Positions 25,593 to 32,083 of a stretch of 64,000 nt of DNA are shown here, in pieces. Within the stretch, counting starts at the first letter, position 1; each line of letters starts with the position of its first letter. The notes beneath the pieces are model-generated. The model was not told the origin of the DNA. It did no database searches and saw only the letters and a list, made by a program, of their open reading frames with translations. The position numbers and the translations under genes are program-made. Source of the DNA: Niabella aurantiaca DSM 17617 (GTDB taxonomy: Bacteria; Bacteroidota; Bacteroidia; Chitinophagales; Chitinophagaceae); contig NZ_KB893628.1 of the NCBI RefSeq assembly GCF_000374125.1, positions 78,910 through 142,909 of the forward strand, read 5' to 3'.

Positions 25593-26972
25593 TTAATACT
25601 CGTTCTGCTCTGCATTCCAGGTAGTCCATGTTTTTGTCCAGTCATTGGTCTGATCAAAAGCGCCTTTGTAAGCAACGGCCTGAAAACCGGAAATACCGTC
25701 AAAATTTGCTCCGGTAAGTGCAGGAGAACCTGCCGCCAACAGGAAGCTGGGGGTTGCATTGAATTTGTATGCATCAGCAACTTTTGCTTCGGCGATCGTA
25801 GCCAAAACAGCATTATTGCTCTCGATCTGCGGTTTGATCACCGGGTTCGTTGTTTTAACCGGCTCCGGGCAACCGGCAATAATGTTGTTTTTAAACATCA
25901 GGCTGCCGGCGAGATAGTTCAATGAAGTGGCTGTACCTTTTGTATCATCAATATAAACACCGATCGGGAATCCAACGAACACGGAGTTTACAATAGACAG
26001 GGAAGAGTTACGGCGGATCTGGGCTCCATGTTTAAAATATTCATGAATGGTATTGCCCGTGCCATTCATGGGACCGATGATGGTAACATTTGAGAAAACG
26101 GCTTTTGTTTGCGGCGTTCTTGTAGAACCATTGCCATCGTTATCGGACTCAAAGCCATTCGACTCTGATTTATCCCTGTAAGCTGGGTTGCGCTGGGCAA
26201 TGGCAAACTGAACTTTACCGGAATAACCATTGTCTGTGTCAAAATCATCATCCCAGGTACCGGTAGCCACAAGGTGGTCTGCATTTACGGTGCCGCCAAA
26301 CCATTCGATGGCATCATCACCGGAACGGTATACCTGAACATAGCTCACCTGTGTTCCGGATCCAACCCCGCCAAAAGTGATCCCGTTAATTTCATTATCT
26401 GTAGAGTATTCCACCCCGGCAAATTCCACACGTACATATTTTAATATCCCGGAATTATCGGCAGGATTGTCGCCGCCATATTCGTTGAGGGTCGTGCCTG
26501 TAGGAACGGTTAAACCACCTTCCACTTTGGATTTATCTGCCGTTGTATTAGAAGGCGCTTTTCCCAGAAGGATCAGCCCGCCCCAGTCACCGGCCTTTCT
26601 TTGCCCTTTGGGGAAATTAGAAGTAAATACAATGGGCTTATCAGCAGTTCCCTGTGCAATGATCTTTCCGCCCCGGGCAATGATCAATGTTCCCTTGGAT
26701 TTATTATCTCCCTTTATTACGGTACCCGGTTCTATAGTAAGTGTAGCGCCGTCAGCAACATACACAAATCCCTTAAGCAGGTATTTATTATTCGCTGTCC
26801 ATGTCGTATTCGCTGTTATGGTGGAAGGGAGGGGATCACCGGAACCGCTTGCCTGGCCTACAACGATCTCCGTTCCTGTTTTTGGAGGATCAATCGTATC
26901 GCCTTTATCGCTGCCGCAGGAAGCGAAGAGCAGTGTTGCAACGCTGAACAACAATGTAACTTGTTTTTTCAT
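25593..26972 (-). CDS. surface lipoprotein with parallel beta-helix, paired with a TonB-dependent receptor
   Basis: The 459-residue protein has a lipoprotein signal with lipobox ASC (LLFASCGSDKGD), then a TANTTWTANNKYLLKGFVY segment and repeated short strands typical of right-handed parallel beta-helices (GTLIIARGGKIIAQG, GDWGGLILLGKAP, SNGFESDNDGNGS). It belongs to a lipoprotein family common in Bacteroidota next to receptors of the type found downstream; I know no assigned function. It has its own promoter with a PhoB-like repeat in the 82-bp gap after the receptor. Context suggests capture or processing of a phosphorus-containing ligand at the surface (inference from neighbours, not from catalytic motifs). 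Confidence 0.85.
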   Translation of the reverse strand: MKKQVTLLFSVATLLFASCGSDKGDTIDPPKTGTEIVVGQASGSGDPLPSTITANTTWTANNKYLLKGFVYVADGATLTIEPGTVIKGDNKSKGTLIIARGGKIIAQGTADKPIVFTSNFPKGQRKAGDWGGLILLGKAPSNTTADKSKVEGGLTVPTGTTLNEYGGDNPADNSGILKYVRVEFAGVEYSTDNEINGITFGGVGSGTQVSYVQVYRSGDDAIEWFGGTVNADHLVATGTWDDDFDTDNGYSGKVQFAIAQRNPAYRDKSESNGFESDNDGNGSTRTPQTKAVFSNVTIIGPMNGTGNTIHEYFKHGAQIRRNSSLSIVNSVFVGFPIGVYIDDTKGTATSLNYLAGSLMFKNNIIAGCPEPVKTTNPVIKPQIESNNAVLATIAEAKVADAYKFNATPSFLLAAGSPALTGANFDGISGFQAVAYKGAFDQTNDWTKTWTTWNAEQNEY

Positions 26973-26992: not shown

Positions 26993-27048
26993 TAAAAGTA
27001 GAAGTTAAATATTACCAAATCATTACCGGAGGGTGTTGATTGTGTTAA
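26993..27048 (-). promoter_or_regulatory. lipoprotein promoter with PhoB-like 11-bp repeats
   Basis: On the plus strand ATATTACC (27009) and TCATTACC (27020) are 11 bp apart, and GTGTTAAC (27042) is in the same 11-bp phase. A near-consensus -7 element TACTTTTA (minus strand, 26993-27000) lies 8 bp from the nearest repeat, leaving a leader of about 15 nt. The geometry matches the array at 29861. Confidence 0.6.
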
Positions 27049-27054
27049 CGATCT

Positions 27055-29829
27055 TTAGAATTTATAGGTATAGGAAAGGGTTACGGTAGTACCCGGCCGG
27101 TATTCTTCCAGGATCCAGTCCTTGTTCAATGTATTCATTCCGTTCTGGAACGAGCTTCCGTCAAATTTTTCGTTTCCGTTCTGATCAAAATAGAACCGGA
27201 TGGGCGCATTCAGTATATCTTTTGCATTGAGTTTGAACGAGCTCCTGGGGCTTACCTGGTACGACACCTGGGCATCCAGCAGGTTGCGCGGCATTTCATA
27301 TACCATTCCATACAGGTTACCGCCTACCAGGTCGATCCGCTGTCCGATCCTGTTGTACAGCACATTTGCACCAAACTTATTGTCTCTTGTCTGATAAGAA
27401 AGTCCGGTATTAATGGCATACGGCGACTGGCCGGTCAGCGGTCTGTCTGTGATCGTAGACCCGTCCGGCAGGTACAGCGGTCCATCCAGCTTCACCTTTG
27501 ACTGGATCAGCGCCACATTCGTATAAAATTCCAGTTGCCTCAGTCCTTCACTGATAAAGTTCAGTTTCTTTCTTATCTCCGCTTCAAACCCGATGTTGGT
27601 GGCCGATGGGAAGTTGTTGGTGGTTACCTCCAGTGCACTTTGTGCCTTGTAGATCGATGTTTCGATCGTGTTCCTGAACTTTTTGTAAAACAGGGAGGCG
27701 GAAATAATTTCACCAGGCGCCATGAACCATTCATATTTCAGGTCAAAGTTGTCAATTTGAGAGCGGGTAAGATCCGGGTTCCCCAATACATTCGCCATCC
27801 GCTCAAAGTCATAATAATAGAACGGTGCAACCTCCCTGAACTCCGGCCGGCCCAGGCTTCTGAAATAAGAGGCCCGCAGGTTGGTCTTTGGTGTTATCGA
27901 ATAAGTGAAGTTCGCCGATGGTAAAACATCCGTCCACGTTTTGCTGAAATTCTGCGATGAGTTTACGTTCAGCTTATAGTATTCGTACCGGACACCCCAT
28001 ACCAGGCGCAGCTTGTTGGTGAACTTGTTGTCCAGCAGCACATACCCCGCATAGTTGCCGGCATTAGCGGTATAACGGTCCTGCCCCTGGGTAAGATCTT
28101 TTAGCGAGTAGATACCGGAGTTGATCACACCGGGGGTAAATAACTGATCGATCGGGCTGCGCAATACCTCTTCCTCATTGGGGCCTCCGGGATTGATCAC
28201 GGGGCCGATCATCCTGTTTTTATCATCACGATCCCTGTAGGCCGCAAATCCGCCGAATTTAACAGATGATTTTTCAAACAGGTTCACGGGCACTTTCAGG
28301 TTCACCGCGCCGTTGTAGATCTTTTCGTTCAGGTCGCCAAACAGCCGGTTGTTCTCCCTCCCCAGGTTTCCCAGGTCTGCAATAAATGCATTGCTGGTTC
28401 CCATAGACCGGGAATAGCCCACTTTACGTTGGTCCGGCCGGTTATTGGTCACCAGGTTAAAGGAGGCCAGGTAATCCAGCACCACGCCATTTTCACCCAG
28501 CTTATTTTCTCCTTTAAATGTATTCTTAAGCAGTGATTTCTGGATCAGGTCAAAGGCATAGAAACGGATATCGCTGCCCCGGCCCAGGTTGGAGCCTTCC
28601 CTGTAGAGGAGATTGTCATCAAAGATCCGGTTGTATAAATTCTTAAAAGAGTACTTCCCCTTCTCGGTCTGATAAGATAAGTTAAGCAGGGCCCCTATAT
28701 TACTGGAATATTTATATGTATTGTCATTATAATTATAATCGTCATATTGGCGTAAGACATCTTTTTTTACGGTTTCGGAGTGGGTATAGGTAATCCCTGC
28801 CGTATAACCGAATTTGTTCCCGTTCTCAAAGATCCGCAGGTCGCCCATATTTGCCTGCAGGTTGAGCTGTGGCAGCGCCTTTCTTGTTTTTATATTGAAA
28901 TCGTTGTTCAGGCTCAAAAGCGCGCTGTTGACCTGTTCCTGGCTAAGCTGTCTTCCTTCGATCGCATCGGTGCCCGGAAAGCTGGCGGGCAGCTGGCGGG
29001 CGCCGTTATCAAAGCCCAGGAAGTCCGTCCCGGACCGGTATCCCGATCTGAAATCTTTAAAGGTAGCAACAGAATTATACCCTATCCCCAGTGTGAAATC
29101 GATGAACTTGCGTGTAGGCACTTCCTTGGTGATTACATTGATCACCCCTCCTGCAAAATCTGCCGGCAGGTCGGGGGTACCCGCTTTGGTAATGATCATG
29201 TTATCGATCATTGAAGAAGGTATGATATCGAAAGAAAAAGCTTTCCTGTTGGGCTCGGTGCTGGGCAGTAAGCTACCGTCTGTAAGGCCCAGGTTATAAC
29301 GGTCGTTCAATCCCCGGATGATCACAAATTTGTTGTCCTGTATGGTTGTGCCGCTTACTCTTTTTAATACATCCCCGGTCGACCGGTCCGGCGATTTACG
29401 GATGGCCTCGGCCGAGATCCCGTCTGAGATGGAAGCGCTGGTACGCTGTGCCTGGTACAAAGACGCTACGGTGCCCTGCTGACGTGCCCTTGCCGATACC
29501 ACAACACCTGCCAGCTCCCCGGAGGCCGGCGTTAGGGTTACGGTCAGCCCGCTGTCTGCAACATAGGCCTCCTGCTTGTATGGGATGGTTTGTGTAATAT
29601 AGTTAAGCGCCGTTACTTTTATAGTAGCCGATTGATTACTTCCTACGTTTATGCGAAATGCTCCGTCTGACTCGGATATGGCGCCTTTATTGGATCCTTC
29701 GATCAACAACGTAGCACCGGCAACCGGTTCACCTGTTACCGCGTTTGTTATTTTCCCCGTAATATTCTGAGAAAAAATATAATTACTGAGAATGATTAAA
29801 AGCCCTGTGAGCAGCAGCCTAATTTGCAT
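27055..29829 (-). CDS. TonB-dependent receptor, probably phosphate-starvation related
   Basis: The 924-residue protein has a signal peptide (1-20, ending NYIFSQ), a carboxypeptidase-D-like domain (ITGKITNAVTGEPVAGATL), a plug (about 125-240, with KRVSGTTIQDNKFVIIRGLN) and a barrel ending LSYTYKF with terminal Phe. It lacks the SusC signature and is not a SusC; its partner is the beta-helix lipoprotein downstream, not a SusD. It is divergent from the DUF47 and PiT phosphate genes across 276 bp containing six in-phase 11-bp repeats. It probably imports a phosphorus compound under PhoB control (inference). Confidence 0.92.
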   Translation of the reverse strand: MQIRLLLTGLLIILSNYIFSQNITGKITNAVTGEPVAGATLLIEGSNKGAISESDGAFRINVGSNQSATIKVTALNYITQTIPYKQEAYVADSGLTVTLTPASGELAGVVVSARARQQGTVASLYQAQRTSASISDGISAEAIRKSPDRSTGDVLKRVSGTTIQDNKFVIIRGLNDRYNLGLTDGSLLPSTEPNRKAFSFDIIPSSMIDNMIITKAGTPDLPADFAGGVINVITKEVPTRKFIDFTLGIGYNSVATFKDFRSGYRSGTDFLGFDNGARQLPASFPGTDAIEGRQLSQEQVNSALLSLNNDFNIKTRKALPQLNLQANMGDLRIFENGNKFGYTAGITYTHSETVKKDVLRQYDDYNYNDNTYKYSSNIGALLNLSYQTEKGKYSFKNLYNRIFDDNLLYREGSNLGRGSDIRFYAFDLIQKSLLKNTFKGENKLGENGVVLDYLASFNLVTNNRPDQRKVGYSRSMGTSNAFIADLGNLGRENNRLFGDLNEKIYNGAVNLKVPVNLFEKSSVKFGGFAAYRDRDDKNRMIGPVINPGGPNEEEVLRSPIDQLFTPGVINSGIYSLKDLTQGQDRYTANAGNYAGYVLLDNKFTNKLRLVWGVRYEYYKLNVNSSQNFSKTWTDVLPSANFTYSITPKTNLRASYFRSLGRPEFREVAPFYYYDFERMANVLGNPDLTRSQIDNFDLKYEWFMAPGEIISASLFYKKFRNTIETSIYKAQSALEVTTNNFPSATNIGFEAEIRKKLNFISEGLRQLEFYTNVALIQSKVKLDGPLYLPDGSTITDRPLTGQSPYAINTGLSYQTRDNKFGANVLYNRIGQRIDLVGGNLYGMVYEMPRNLLDAQVSYQVSPRSSFKLNAKDILNAPIRFYFDQNGNEKFDGSSFQNGMNTLNKDWILEEYRPGTTVTLSYTYKF

Positions 29830-29843
29830 ATTGAATATTTCTG

Positions 29844-29922
29844 CAAAGATTCAGATCACATTGTTACCCCATTGTTACCGCCATGTTACCAAATCATCAC
29901 GTCAGCATTACCATAATGTTAA
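29844..29922 (-). promoter_or_regulatory. PhoB-like tandem repeat array and -7 element of the TonB receptor gene
   Basis: On the plus strand six segments begin every 11 bp: TTGTTAC (29861), TTGTTAC (29872), ATGTTAC (29883), TCATCAC (29894), GCATTAC (29905) and ATGTTAA (29916); four are followed by C. Seven-bp direct repeats with 4-bp spacers are the geometry of Pho boxes. A near-consensus -7 element AATCTTTG (minus strand, 29844-29851) lies 9 bp from the first repeat, so the array takes the -35 place, as for PhoB-activated promoters. Confidence 0.7.
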
Positions 29923-30075
29923 GCCGCAGGTGCTGCTTGCATTTTCTGTTGAAAACGGTTGTCTTTTCCGTTAAAATCAGGCGCTCCTAATCAAAAAACC
30001 CAAATGAAAGTCCAAATCCTATATTAAGGAATTATTAATTCCTGTAATTTTATAATTATACTACAATGAAGGAGA

Positions 30076-30083
30076 TAATTTTG
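30076..30083 (+). promoter_or_regulatory. -7 promoter element of the DUF47/PiT operon
   Basis: TAATTTTG is a perfect TAnnTTTG match 22 bp before the ATG at 30106. No GTTACC-type repeat is positioned in front of it, so this operon is probably not activated like the divergent receptor gene. Confidence 0.5.
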
Positions 30084-30105
30084 CCACCAATTTTAAAAAC
30101 ATACC

Positions 30106-30753
30106 ATGGGACTTAACTCTTTTCTAAAAATTTTCACCCCCAGCAATACCGTTTTTTTTGAATTGTTTGAGAAGATCGCTGCCAATGTAGCTTCAATGGG
30201 TAAACTTTTAAAACAGATGGTCAATGAAACCGATGCGGACAAGCGCAATTCCCTTTCCCAGGCCATTATTGATATGGAGCATGGTAACGATGAATTAACG
30301 CACAGCGTATTTACAGAATTGGGCAGGAACTTTATTACTCCGTTTGACCGCGAAGACATTCACTCCCTGGCCACTTCCCTCGATGATATTGCCGATTATA
30401 TTTATGCTACAGCAAAAAAGATCACCACCTACCGGGTAAACCCCAATGAAACCGGTATGCACAAAATGGCTGAGCTGATCGTTCAGGCAGCAGAAGAGGT
30501 ACAGGCCGCTGTAATGGAACTGCGGGACATGAAAAAGGTACGGAATATTACTGAGGCCCTTGTAAAGATCAACAGTATTGAGAATCAGGCCGATGATGTT
30601 TTTGACTTAAGTATCGAATATCTATTTGATACCGAAGCAGATGCCAAAGAGGTCATCAAGAAGCGGGAGGTATATCAGGCAATGGAAGTAGTTACGGATA
30701 AGTGTGAAGACGTAGGAAATGTGATCGAATCCATTATTATCAAATACGCCTAA
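30106..30753 (+). CDS. DUF47 / PhoU-like phosphate transport regulator
   Basis: The 215-residue all-helical protein belongs to the DUF47 (PhoU_div) family. It carries the acidic, putative metal-binding segments DMEHGNDELTH and FDREDIHSLATSLDDIADYIYAT, and the second repeat half with ENQADDVFDLSIEYLF and TDKCEDVGNVIESIIIKYA. Such proteins accompany PiT transporters and are thought to modulate phosphate uptake in the cytoplasm. It precedes the PiT gene by 97 bp on the same strand, a very widespread pair. Confidence 0.93.
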   Translation: MGLNSFLKIFTPSNTVFFELFEKIAANVASMGKLLKQMVNETDADKRNSLSQAIIDMEHGNDELTHSVFTELGRNFITPFDREDIHSLATSLDDIADYIYATAKKITTYRVNPNETGMHKMAELIVQAAEEVQAAVMELRDMKKVRNITEALVKINSIENQADDVFDLSIEYLFDTEADAKEVIKKREVYQAMEVVTDKCEDVGNVIESIIIKYA

Positions 30754-30850: not shown

Positions 30851-32083
30851 ATGTTTACCTATCTCGTTGTTATCATATCCCTGGCATTAATATTTGACTA
30901 CATCAACGGGTTTCATGATGCGGCCAACTCCATTGCTACCGTTGTATCGACAAAAGTGCTGACCCCTTTTCAGGCGGTGATATGGGCGGCCCTTTTCAAT
31001 TTTGTGGCTTATTTTATTTTTAAGGACCACGGGGTAGCCAATACCATTGCCAAAACCGTCAAAGAGAACTTTATCGATCTCAACGTGATTTTTGCCGGGC
31101 TGATCGCGGCCATTATCTGGAACCTGTTTACCTGGTGGCGGGGTATTCCGTCTTCTTCCTCGCATACGCTGATCGGCGGGTTTGCCGGGGCGGGTATCTC
31201 CCACGCTATCGGAATGGGCGCCGGCAACCCGTTTACGGCGGTGAACTCCAGTGTGATCCTTACCATTGCCGCGTTTATTTTCCTGGCCCCCATCATCGGG
31301 ATGATCATCGCATTCCTTTTTTCCATCTGGTTCATCAATTCATTTAAAAAAGGCTGGCGGGTAAAACTTTTTTCCTTCCTGGTGGTAGCTGCAGTATTTG
31401 TTTTTTTAAGCCTCGTCCTGGAAACAGATCCGGCCATGCTGAAATCGCACTATGAATCCTATTTCCTGAAGCTTATTTTCTATTCCCACAACTTTAAATT
31501 CATCCTGCTGGGGCTCATCCTGATCATTATGGCCCTGTTCTCCCTGTTTTTAAGCGGGCTGAATGCACACCGGGCCAATATCTGGTTCAAGCGGCTGCAG
31601 TTGGTTTCTTCCGCTATCTTTAGTATCGGGCACGGTGGCAACGATGCCCAAAAGGTGATGGGCATCATTATGGCAGCGCTGGTGGCCTATGACCCCGGTG
31701 CCTATAACCTGAACCATATGGTGGTTTGGGTACCGCTGGCCTGTTATACCGCCATTGCCCTGGGCACGATGAGCGGCGGCTGGAAAATTGTAAAGACGAT
31801 GGGTACCAAGATCACCAAGGTAACCCCTTTTGAGGGGGTAGCCGCAGAAACCGCAGGTGCTCTTACCCTGTTTGCCACGGAGGCGATGAAGATCCCCGTG
31901 AGCACCACGCATACCATTACCGGCTCCATCATGGGGGTAGGCGCTACCAAGCGTTTATCTGCCGTACGCTGGGGGGTAACCATCAACCTGGTTTGGGCCT
32001 GGATCCTGACCATACCGGTGAGCGCGGTGCTGGCCAGCCTCGTTTATTTCATCATGAAACTGGTCGTTCCGGGGATCCAGTAG
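30851..32083 (+). CDS. PiT-family inorganic phosphate transporter
   Basis: The 410-residue integral membrane protein (PHO4 family) has about ten hydrophobic segments and the two duplicated signature motifs: GFHDAANSIATVVSTKVL near residue 20 and GHGGNDAQKVMGII near 265. Conserved GGxAGAGISHA and STTHTITGSIMGVGA elements are also visible. It imports phosphate, usually as a metal-phosphate complex with protons, across the inner membrane at low affinity. It is downstream of the DUF47 gene; the divergent receptor/lipoprotein pair could supply phosphate across the outer membrane. Confidence 0.96.
   Translation: MFTYLVVIISLALIFDYINGFHDAANSIATVVSTKVLTPFQAVIWAALFNFVAYFIFKDHGVANTIAKTVKENFIDLNVIFAGLIAAIIWNLFTWWRGIPSSSSHTLIGGFAGAGISHAIGMGAGNPFTAVNSSVILTIAAFIFLAPIIGMIIAFLFSIWFINSFKKGWRVKLFSFLVVAAVFVFLSLVLETDPAMLKSHYESYFLKLIFYSHNFKFILLGLILIIMALFSLFLSGLNAHRANIWFKRLQLVSSAIFSIGHGGNDAQKVMGIIMAALVAYDPGAYNLNHMVVWVPLACYTAIALGTMSGGWKIVKTMGTKITKVTPFEGVAAETAGALTLFATEAMKIPVSTTHTITGSIMGVGATKRLSAVRWGVTINLVWAWILTIPVSAVLASLVYFIMKLVVPGIQ

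Follow-up and report, generated by a model that had tools for sequence, protein, structure and literature searches.

A putative Bacteroidota-type Pho box upstream of a TonB-dependent receptor gene of Niabella aurantiaca

Background

Six direct repeats with a period of 11 base pairs (bp) lie upstream of a TonB-dependent receptor gene in Niabella aurantiaca DSM 17617 (Bacteroidota; Chitinophagaceae), and the question raised by this locus is which regulator reads them and on behalf of which promoter. The DNA analysed, here called the window, is a stretch of 64,000 nucleotides (nt) of contig NZ_KB893628.1 (G000:C4:78910-142909). An earlier note on this DNA, made from its letters alone, had proposed a PhoB-type array. 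In this paper, we report that the array is very probably a Pho box of a Bacteroidota type, that is, the PhoB operator of the receptor promoter, a reading that starts from the observed repeats, their conservation, their fixed spacing to a -7-like promoter box and their association with phosphate-starvation genes.

Phosphate-starvation genes of the Bacteroidota have been listed by expression (PMC8115612) and the sites of one regulator have been mapped in a duck pathogen (PMC9603813). In the literature that we consulted we found no consensus operator linked to Pho genes throughout the phylum, and an earlier box may be contained in published predictions for plcP gene clusters (PMC4796936). With unit, period and -7 spacing defined, the Pho regulon could be deduced directly from genome sequence. 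The array also points to uncharacterised genes of inorganic phosphate (Pi) physiology, namely the receptor, a partner lipoprotein and a choice-of-anchor I lipoprotein, and it offers a compact test case for the action of OmpR-family activators on Bacteroidota promoters.

The array and its promoter

The receptor gene (27055..29829, minus strand) encodes 924 amino acids (aa) with matches to PF13715, PF07715 and PF00593. The array occupies 29857..29922 and its functional reading is the minus strand, which is the coding strand of the receptor. Its units, of the form (T/G)TAACATTNNN, start at 29922, 29911, 29900, 29889, 29878 and 29867 and read toward the receptor as TTAACATTATG GTAATGCTGAC GTGATGATTTG GTAACATGGCG GTAACAATGGG GTAACAATGTG, followed by ATCTGAATCTTTGCAG, which contains the -7-like box. 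On the plus strand the corresponding segments are TTGTTAC at 29861 and 29872, ATGTTAC at 29883, TCATCAC at 29894 (weak), GCATTAC at 29905 and ATGTTAA at 29916, in exact 11-bp register. The positions, the register and the weak copy at 29894 were thus correctly given in the earlier note; the strict form WTGTTAC, which it had assigned to all but the weak copy, is present only at 29861, 29872 and 29883, those at 29905 and 29916 being partial. The core is indeed unlike the CTGTCAT of the enterobacterial Pho box, as had been claimed, and GTTACC has to be replaced as the core by the conserved TTAACA/GTAACA of the coding strand (TGTTAA/TGTTAC on the plus strand).

The array region has the strongest 11-bp self-similarity of the whole window: 66-base stretches with at least 30 of 55 matches at lag 11 begin at 39 positions, all in a single run (29822-29860) that covers the array. 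When 29830-30105 was shuffled 5000 times with dinucleotides preserved, no shuffle reached the observed lag-11 maximum of 33 (the shuffles averaged 21.2 and peaked at 31), so that the six in-phase repeats claimed upstream of the receptor are confirmed by direct reading and by shuffling. In the 5.93-Mb genome an exact TTAC triple spaced at 11 bp (GTAA on the minus strand) occurs once, as does the backward control pattern. Direct repeats of 11 nt, about seven of them conserved and four less so, give the array the claimed Pho-box geometry and, as judged from its letters, the architecture of a Pho box with a different core. The same architecture of 11-nt repeats is found in the enterobacterial Pho box read by Escherichia coli PhoB (PMC4415409).

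The promoter box AATCTTTG (29844..29851, minus strand, read 29851-29844) has one mismatch to TAnnTTTG, which we take to be the -7 consensus and on which the name -7-like box is based. It lies 9 bp from the first TTGTTAC, and the near-consensus box claimed at that distance is therefore present. Its TTTG starts 20 bases past the start of the last unit, compared with 19 in most relatives. Among the 52 receptor upstream sequences described below, the first TTTG stands 19 bases after the last-unit start in 38, five others have an earlier extra TTTG at 12, and a spacing of 20 occurs in three (the own genome, Niabella drilacis (L032) and L012); this count is partly by construction because the joint fit that placed the arrays used the tail. 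In this predicted promoter the array accordingly stands upstream of a -10-type box, at a fixed distance and in place of the -35 box, and the fixed spacing in relatives bears out the position that had been claimed for it.

Conservation upstream of receptor relatives

Receptor relatives were taken from 59 searched genomes (39 with a match at an E-value of ≤ 1e-60) and from the named genome collection (27 loci). Removal of duplicates (L001, L003 and L007), of a locus that is cut off (L048) and of two whose 5' end is missing (L005 and L033) left 52 usable upstream sequences, several of them from close relatives of one another. Units of the form given above recur at 11 bp in most of these sequences, in Chitinophagales as well as Flavobacteriaceae, with core and spacing kept and spacers variable. 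Distances between TAAC copies peak at 11 (64 times), 22 (35 times) and 33 bases (44 times), while any other distance from 4 to 40 occurs at most 8 times; unlike the TTTG count, these peaks are not produced by construction.

The sequences were also scored with cross-clade models, each trained on the other clade, the training arrays for both having been placed by one joint fit and the threshold set at the 99.9th percentile of mononucleotide shuffles. Forty-three of the 52 upstreams passed (17/22 Flavobacteriaceae and 26/30 others), compared with 1/52 reversed sequences and 2/52 on the other strand. The array persists in relatives in which the upstream neighbour of the receptor differs, being for example a PhoB-type regulator or, in some, what is presumably a dGTPase-like protein. 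In two Flavobacteriaceae loci, L043 and L055 (Pfam run for L043), a PhoB-type regulator and a histidine kinase are divergent from the receptor, an arrangement that fits the gene order of Flavobacterium johnsoniae from Fjoh_0543 (PhoR) to Fjoh_0546.

Genes behind matching sites

A one-mismatch scan of the own genome for three TAAC copies gave 15 places against 39 for a control pattern and was uninformative; a profile was therefore used instead. A perfect fourfold TAAC at 11 bp, sought in 99 genomes, had proved too strict (11 places in 6 genomes, control 3, none in the own genome), and some of its places were TATAACC repeats of another kind. The sequence-only profile comprised the last four units and the -7 box of 18 receptor upstreams and was run on 39 genomes at E ≤ 0.1, with the reversed profile as a decoy. 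It returned 105 matches against 17 for the decoy, and 55 against none below the decoy's best E-value of 0.00988. These E-values are rough, the decoy having 17 matches where about 4 were expected, one of them the own array itself; the 105 matches include 13 training sites, and several others represent additional parts of the same arrays or the corresponding promoter in closely related genomes.

Forty regions holding 46 of the 105 matches were fetched, namely 44 of the 65 at E ≤ 0.0173 and two weaker ones that fell in the same regions; the remaining 21 of the 65 are mostly receptor promoters themselves. None of the 46 lies inside an open reading frame (ORF) of at least 70 aa (overhang of up to 10 bases allowed), and 43 have an ORF start within 200 bp downstream. 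The genes behind them include calcineurin-like phosphoesterases of the PlcP kind (six sites; Pfam on one, the others by sequence likeness), other metallophosphatases (one with a purple-acid-phosphatase N domain), PAP2, MauG, two extracytoplasmic function (ECF) sigma factors, a PhoB-type regulator (L170), choice-of-anchor I lipoproteins (three sites, one in the own genome; Pfam on one), partner-like lipoproteins, and many TonB receptors and beta-barrels. PlcP is a lipid-remodelling enzyme of phosphorus starvation, often encoded in an operon with a glycosyltransferase, and putative Pho-box sites have been predicted in plcP gene clusters (PMC4796936).

The own genome carries at least four sites: the main array, a site before the lipoprotein gene, and two more that lie ahead of a choice-of-anchor I lipoprotein (G000:C2:397137, E 1.1e-4) and of plcP (G000:C4:21255-22127). 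The gene that follows plcP encodes a PF13528 glycosyltransferase. The plcP site fell short of the E ≤ 0.1 cut-off and was found by scanning upstream of the gene. Such a site precedes plcP in 12/12 genus upstreams examined; scores range from 14.6 to 21.8, compared with at most 4.7 among 20 control 3-kb pieces taken from the window. Of 16 plcP loci 14 were scanned, the 5'-broken L216 and L217 being left out, and the two outside the genus (L220 and L221) had no array. In other genomes phoB itself has an array (L185 in G042, L170 in G047, and a weaker one, L205, in G043).

Of 23 Flavobacteriaceae loci 21 were scanned (L048 and L058 left out), and sites outside the training set stand before porin O/P-like genes in 12/21 and before PiT-like genes in 8/21 (Pfam on three porins and one PiT); 64 sites score above 12, whereas the reversed loci yield 5. 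A search of 16 genus genomes, of which four are 72-91% complete, gave no PstC match at E ≤ 1e-10, and 2/25 genomes searched overall have one. PF12849 was for this reason set aside as a pstS proxy in the genus, and the test of proximity to pstS was shifted to the whole phylum, in which 49/118 genomes have PstC. The own genome, in which the PstC search had no match, encodes two PF12849 phosphate-binding-like proteins (G000:C20:221334 and G000:C6:64758). Of 54 PstC matches in the phylum the best 30 were scanned, with pstS identified by likeness and from its position ahead of pstC, and an array points at a pstS-like or pstC gene in eight (L232, L240, L248, L249, L252, L253, L254 and L257). Nine of these 30 best loci score above 17 without the tail (decoy 0/30) and six above 12 with it (decoy 1/30); TAAC distances in the intergenic DNA of the pst loci are 11 in 13 cases, 22 in five and 33 in four, any other distance from 4 to 40 occurring at most twice. 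The earlier note held that a PhoB site should be enriched near phosphate genes of related genomes, and this is what was found (plcP, phosphatases, a phoB, PiT, porin O/P and pst). Across the relatives, sites thus precede pst, phosphatase, phoB and similar Pi-starvation genes, the own phoB not being among them.

Comparison with known systems

On Pi depletion, F. johnsoniae raises the receptor Fjoh_0545 (fold change, FC, 8.02) and the lipoprotein Fjoh_0546 (FC 9.91), both listed under 'PhoBR operon', together with PlcP (8.59) and PhoB (3.06), and MauG and ECF sigma factors are also up (PMC8115612). This response, with a receptor and FII lipoprotein beside phoBR, plcP, MauG and ECF sigma factors, comprises gene classes that stand behind the arrays; unlike here, the main text of that paper describes no operator, 'Pho box' and 'motif' occurring 0 times (PMC8115612). 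In Riemerella anatipestifer, DNA affinity purification sequencing (DAP-seq) of PhoP gave the core TTTAACA, which resembles the array core; this regulator is up in phosphate starvation, is classed by the authors with Pho regulators, and has a TonB receptor and the dnaG promoter among its targets in electrophoretic mobility shift assays (EMSA) (PMC9603813). Unlike for the array, no direct-repeat array or -7 layout was found in the text of that account, motif figures aside, 'direct repeat' occurring 0 times (PMC9603813). PhoB of Bacteroides fragilis binds a 512-bp pstC promoter fragment (PMC3547664).

Apart from the core, TTAACA/GTAACA here and CTGTCAT in E. coli, the array differs from the E. 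coli Pho box in standing before a -7-like TAnnTTTG rather than a sigma-70 -10. In E. coli the box stands ahead of the -10 and takes the place of the -35 element; should TGTTAA correspond to TGTCAT, the repeats here would run opposite to those of E. coli relative to the promoter. The PhoP box of Bacillus subtilis consists of TT(A/T/C)ACA repeats with an 11-bp period, nearly the same hexamer at the same period by comparison of consensus rather than by a tool, in a different phylum and with a different sigma factor and -10.

Proposed mechanism

From these observations we infer that PhoB is the binder, how many of its dimers bind, that it activates instead of repressing, and that induction takes place in this organism. 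Under phosphate starvation PhoR would phosphorylate PhoB, an OmpR-family regulator (G000:C2:300002) whose gene is followed by that of a histidine kinase. PhoB dimers would bind head to tail on the 11-bp repeats, up to three of them because there are six units, and with the last unit at the position of the -33 box PhoB would recruit RNA polymerase to the -7 box and turn on the receptor. The weaker copy before the lipoprotein gene would likewise turn on the partner lipoprotein. We lean, by a small margin, towards a broader proposal, namely that this is a phylum-wide Bacteroidota Pho box on which up to three PhoB dimers form a filament that takes the place of the -33 element, the repeats being opposite to those of E. 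coli, and that in Niabella, whose searched genomes gave no PstC match, it controls a Pho regulon without Pst, made up of outer-membrane receptor and lipoprotein, lipid remodelling (plcP with its glycosyltransferase) and choice-of-anchor I lipoprotein.

Alternative explanations

An unlikely alternative, and the one that survives best, is that a different response regulator of the OmpR family, such as an ArcA-like redox regulator, binds the array and likewise recognises TTAAC direct repeats at 11 bp; OmpR-family sites share the head-to-tail repeat geometry. A number of results weigh against PhoB. The Riemerella PhoP motif was described as 'highly similar' to that of E. coli ArcA, the Bat operon was reduced in the phoR mutant, and of the 764 genes found by DAP-seq only 50 were changed in the phoP mutant (PMC9603813), while the F. 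johnsoniae porin OprP beside phoBR was not induced (FC -1.3; PMC8115612). Of the 52 receptor upstreams, nine do not pass the cross-clade models. Weak matches are those before the ECF sigma, MauG and purple-acid-phosphatase-type genes (E 0.011-0.017, with a decoy match also at 0.0146), and several targets have no obvious phosphate link (dnaB, EamA and DUF218). In the Flavobacteriaceae, four of the 64 sites, with scores of 12.2-15.3, fall inside ORFs, which leaves the PiT sites (12.1-19.6) little above the noise level.

Arrays before phoB, where the earlier note would look for enrichment, occur in L170, L185 and, weaker, L205; the phoB promoters of the 11 genus members examined, the own genome included, have no clear array. 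Of 20 phoB upstreams scored (of 21 loci, L193 being left out), only L185 (25.1) and L205 (14.4) exceed 10 in a score of three repeats plus tail. For pstS, the eight loci with an array before pstS or pstC are set against 22 of the 30 best without an array pointing at pst. The PF12849 loci of the genus that were scanned (30/36 matches as loci) had no convincing array.

Against a redox regulator stand the genes behind the arrays, which are largely those of phosphate starvation (plcP, pst, PiT, porin O/P, phosphatases and phoB). An ArcA box would be expected before a set of respiratory and redox genes; most of the 46 fetched sites belong to phosphate and outer-membrane genes, and one to a MauG-type cytochrome peroxidase. 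The receptor is moreover beside a phoBR-like pair in L043 and L055, and the F. johnsoniae TonB-dependent receptor and lipoprotein beside phoBR are up on Pi depletion (PMC8115612). The PhoB-type array of the earlier note is therefore supported, with corrections concerning the core, the separate -7-like box of the divergent operon, and the absence of a clear array from the PF12849 loci scanned and the phoB promoters examined in the genus.

It is very improbable that the repeats serve, by activation or repression, the divergent operon instead of the receptor. This operon encodes, as had been claimed and as PF01865 and PF01384 confirm, a DUF47 (PhoU_div) protein (30106..30753, plus strand) and a PiT-type phosphate transporter of the PHO4 family (30851..32083, plus strand). 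The array does lie in the shared intergenic region, PiT genes have their own sites in the 8/21 Flavobacteriaceae loci, and a TTAATAATTCC TTAATATAGGA pair stands near the DUF47 promoter on the opposite strand; its two-unit Pho-like spacing makes PhoB control of PiT in this genome possible. The array, however, is directed at the receptor with a fixed -7 spacing, points away from the operon and persists with other upstream neighbours. The operon has its own -7-like box, TAATTTTG (30076..30083, plus strand), about 150 bp from the array and separately conserved, with TAnnTTTG in 10/11 aligned upstreams and exact TAATTTTG in 6. Upstream of this promoter lies a 17-bp palindrome, AGGAATTATTAATTCCT (30027-30043), exact in 8/11 aligned upstreams and slightly altered in the remaining 3; read on the opposite strand, it forms part of the TTAATAATTCC TTAATATAGGA pair.

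Chance or a neutral tandem repeat, in favour of which nothing was found, can be dismissed in view of the shuffles, the conservation of core and spacing while spacers vary, and the decoy controls.

The partner lipoprotein and minor observations

Downstream of the receptor lies the gene of a lipoprotein-like partner of 459 aa (25593..26972, minus strand), for which no Pfam or NCBIfam match was found and which by position is the counterpart of the F. johnsoniae lipoprotein FII. It is preceded by a second, weaker array of four units, TTAACACAATC AACACCCTCCG GTAATGATTTG GTAATATTTAA (27005..27048, minus strand), and by the -7-like box TACTTTTA of a second predicted promoter (26993..27000, minus strand). 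This is the best-scoring site of the window outside the main array (four units plus tail), with a profile E-value of 0.0025, and it was absent from the training set. At the lipoprotein promoter position the own score is 7.1, and scores above 10 occur in 8/54 loci of relatives.

The genome of the window belongs to a genus group with Niabella drilacis DSM 25811 (G014; receptor 92% identical) and N. defluvii (G003). The receptor gene of N. defluvii (L007; G003:C1:1553774-1556541) is in two pieces with stops in the assembly, and its upstream array is present (L034).

Pho-like arrays stand upstream of dnaB, the replicative helicase gene, in G018 and G023 (L158 and L162, Pfam for L162), L063 and L064 being alike, and the former of these is an array before a dnaB-like ORF in G067. 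Together with the dnaG promoter among the EMSA targets of Riemerella PhoP, these arrays make a link between phosphate and replication possible. Repeats of TATAACCC(G/A) at 11-bp spacing occur at three places of one genome, G062 (L059, L065 and L069), and look like another kind of repeat.
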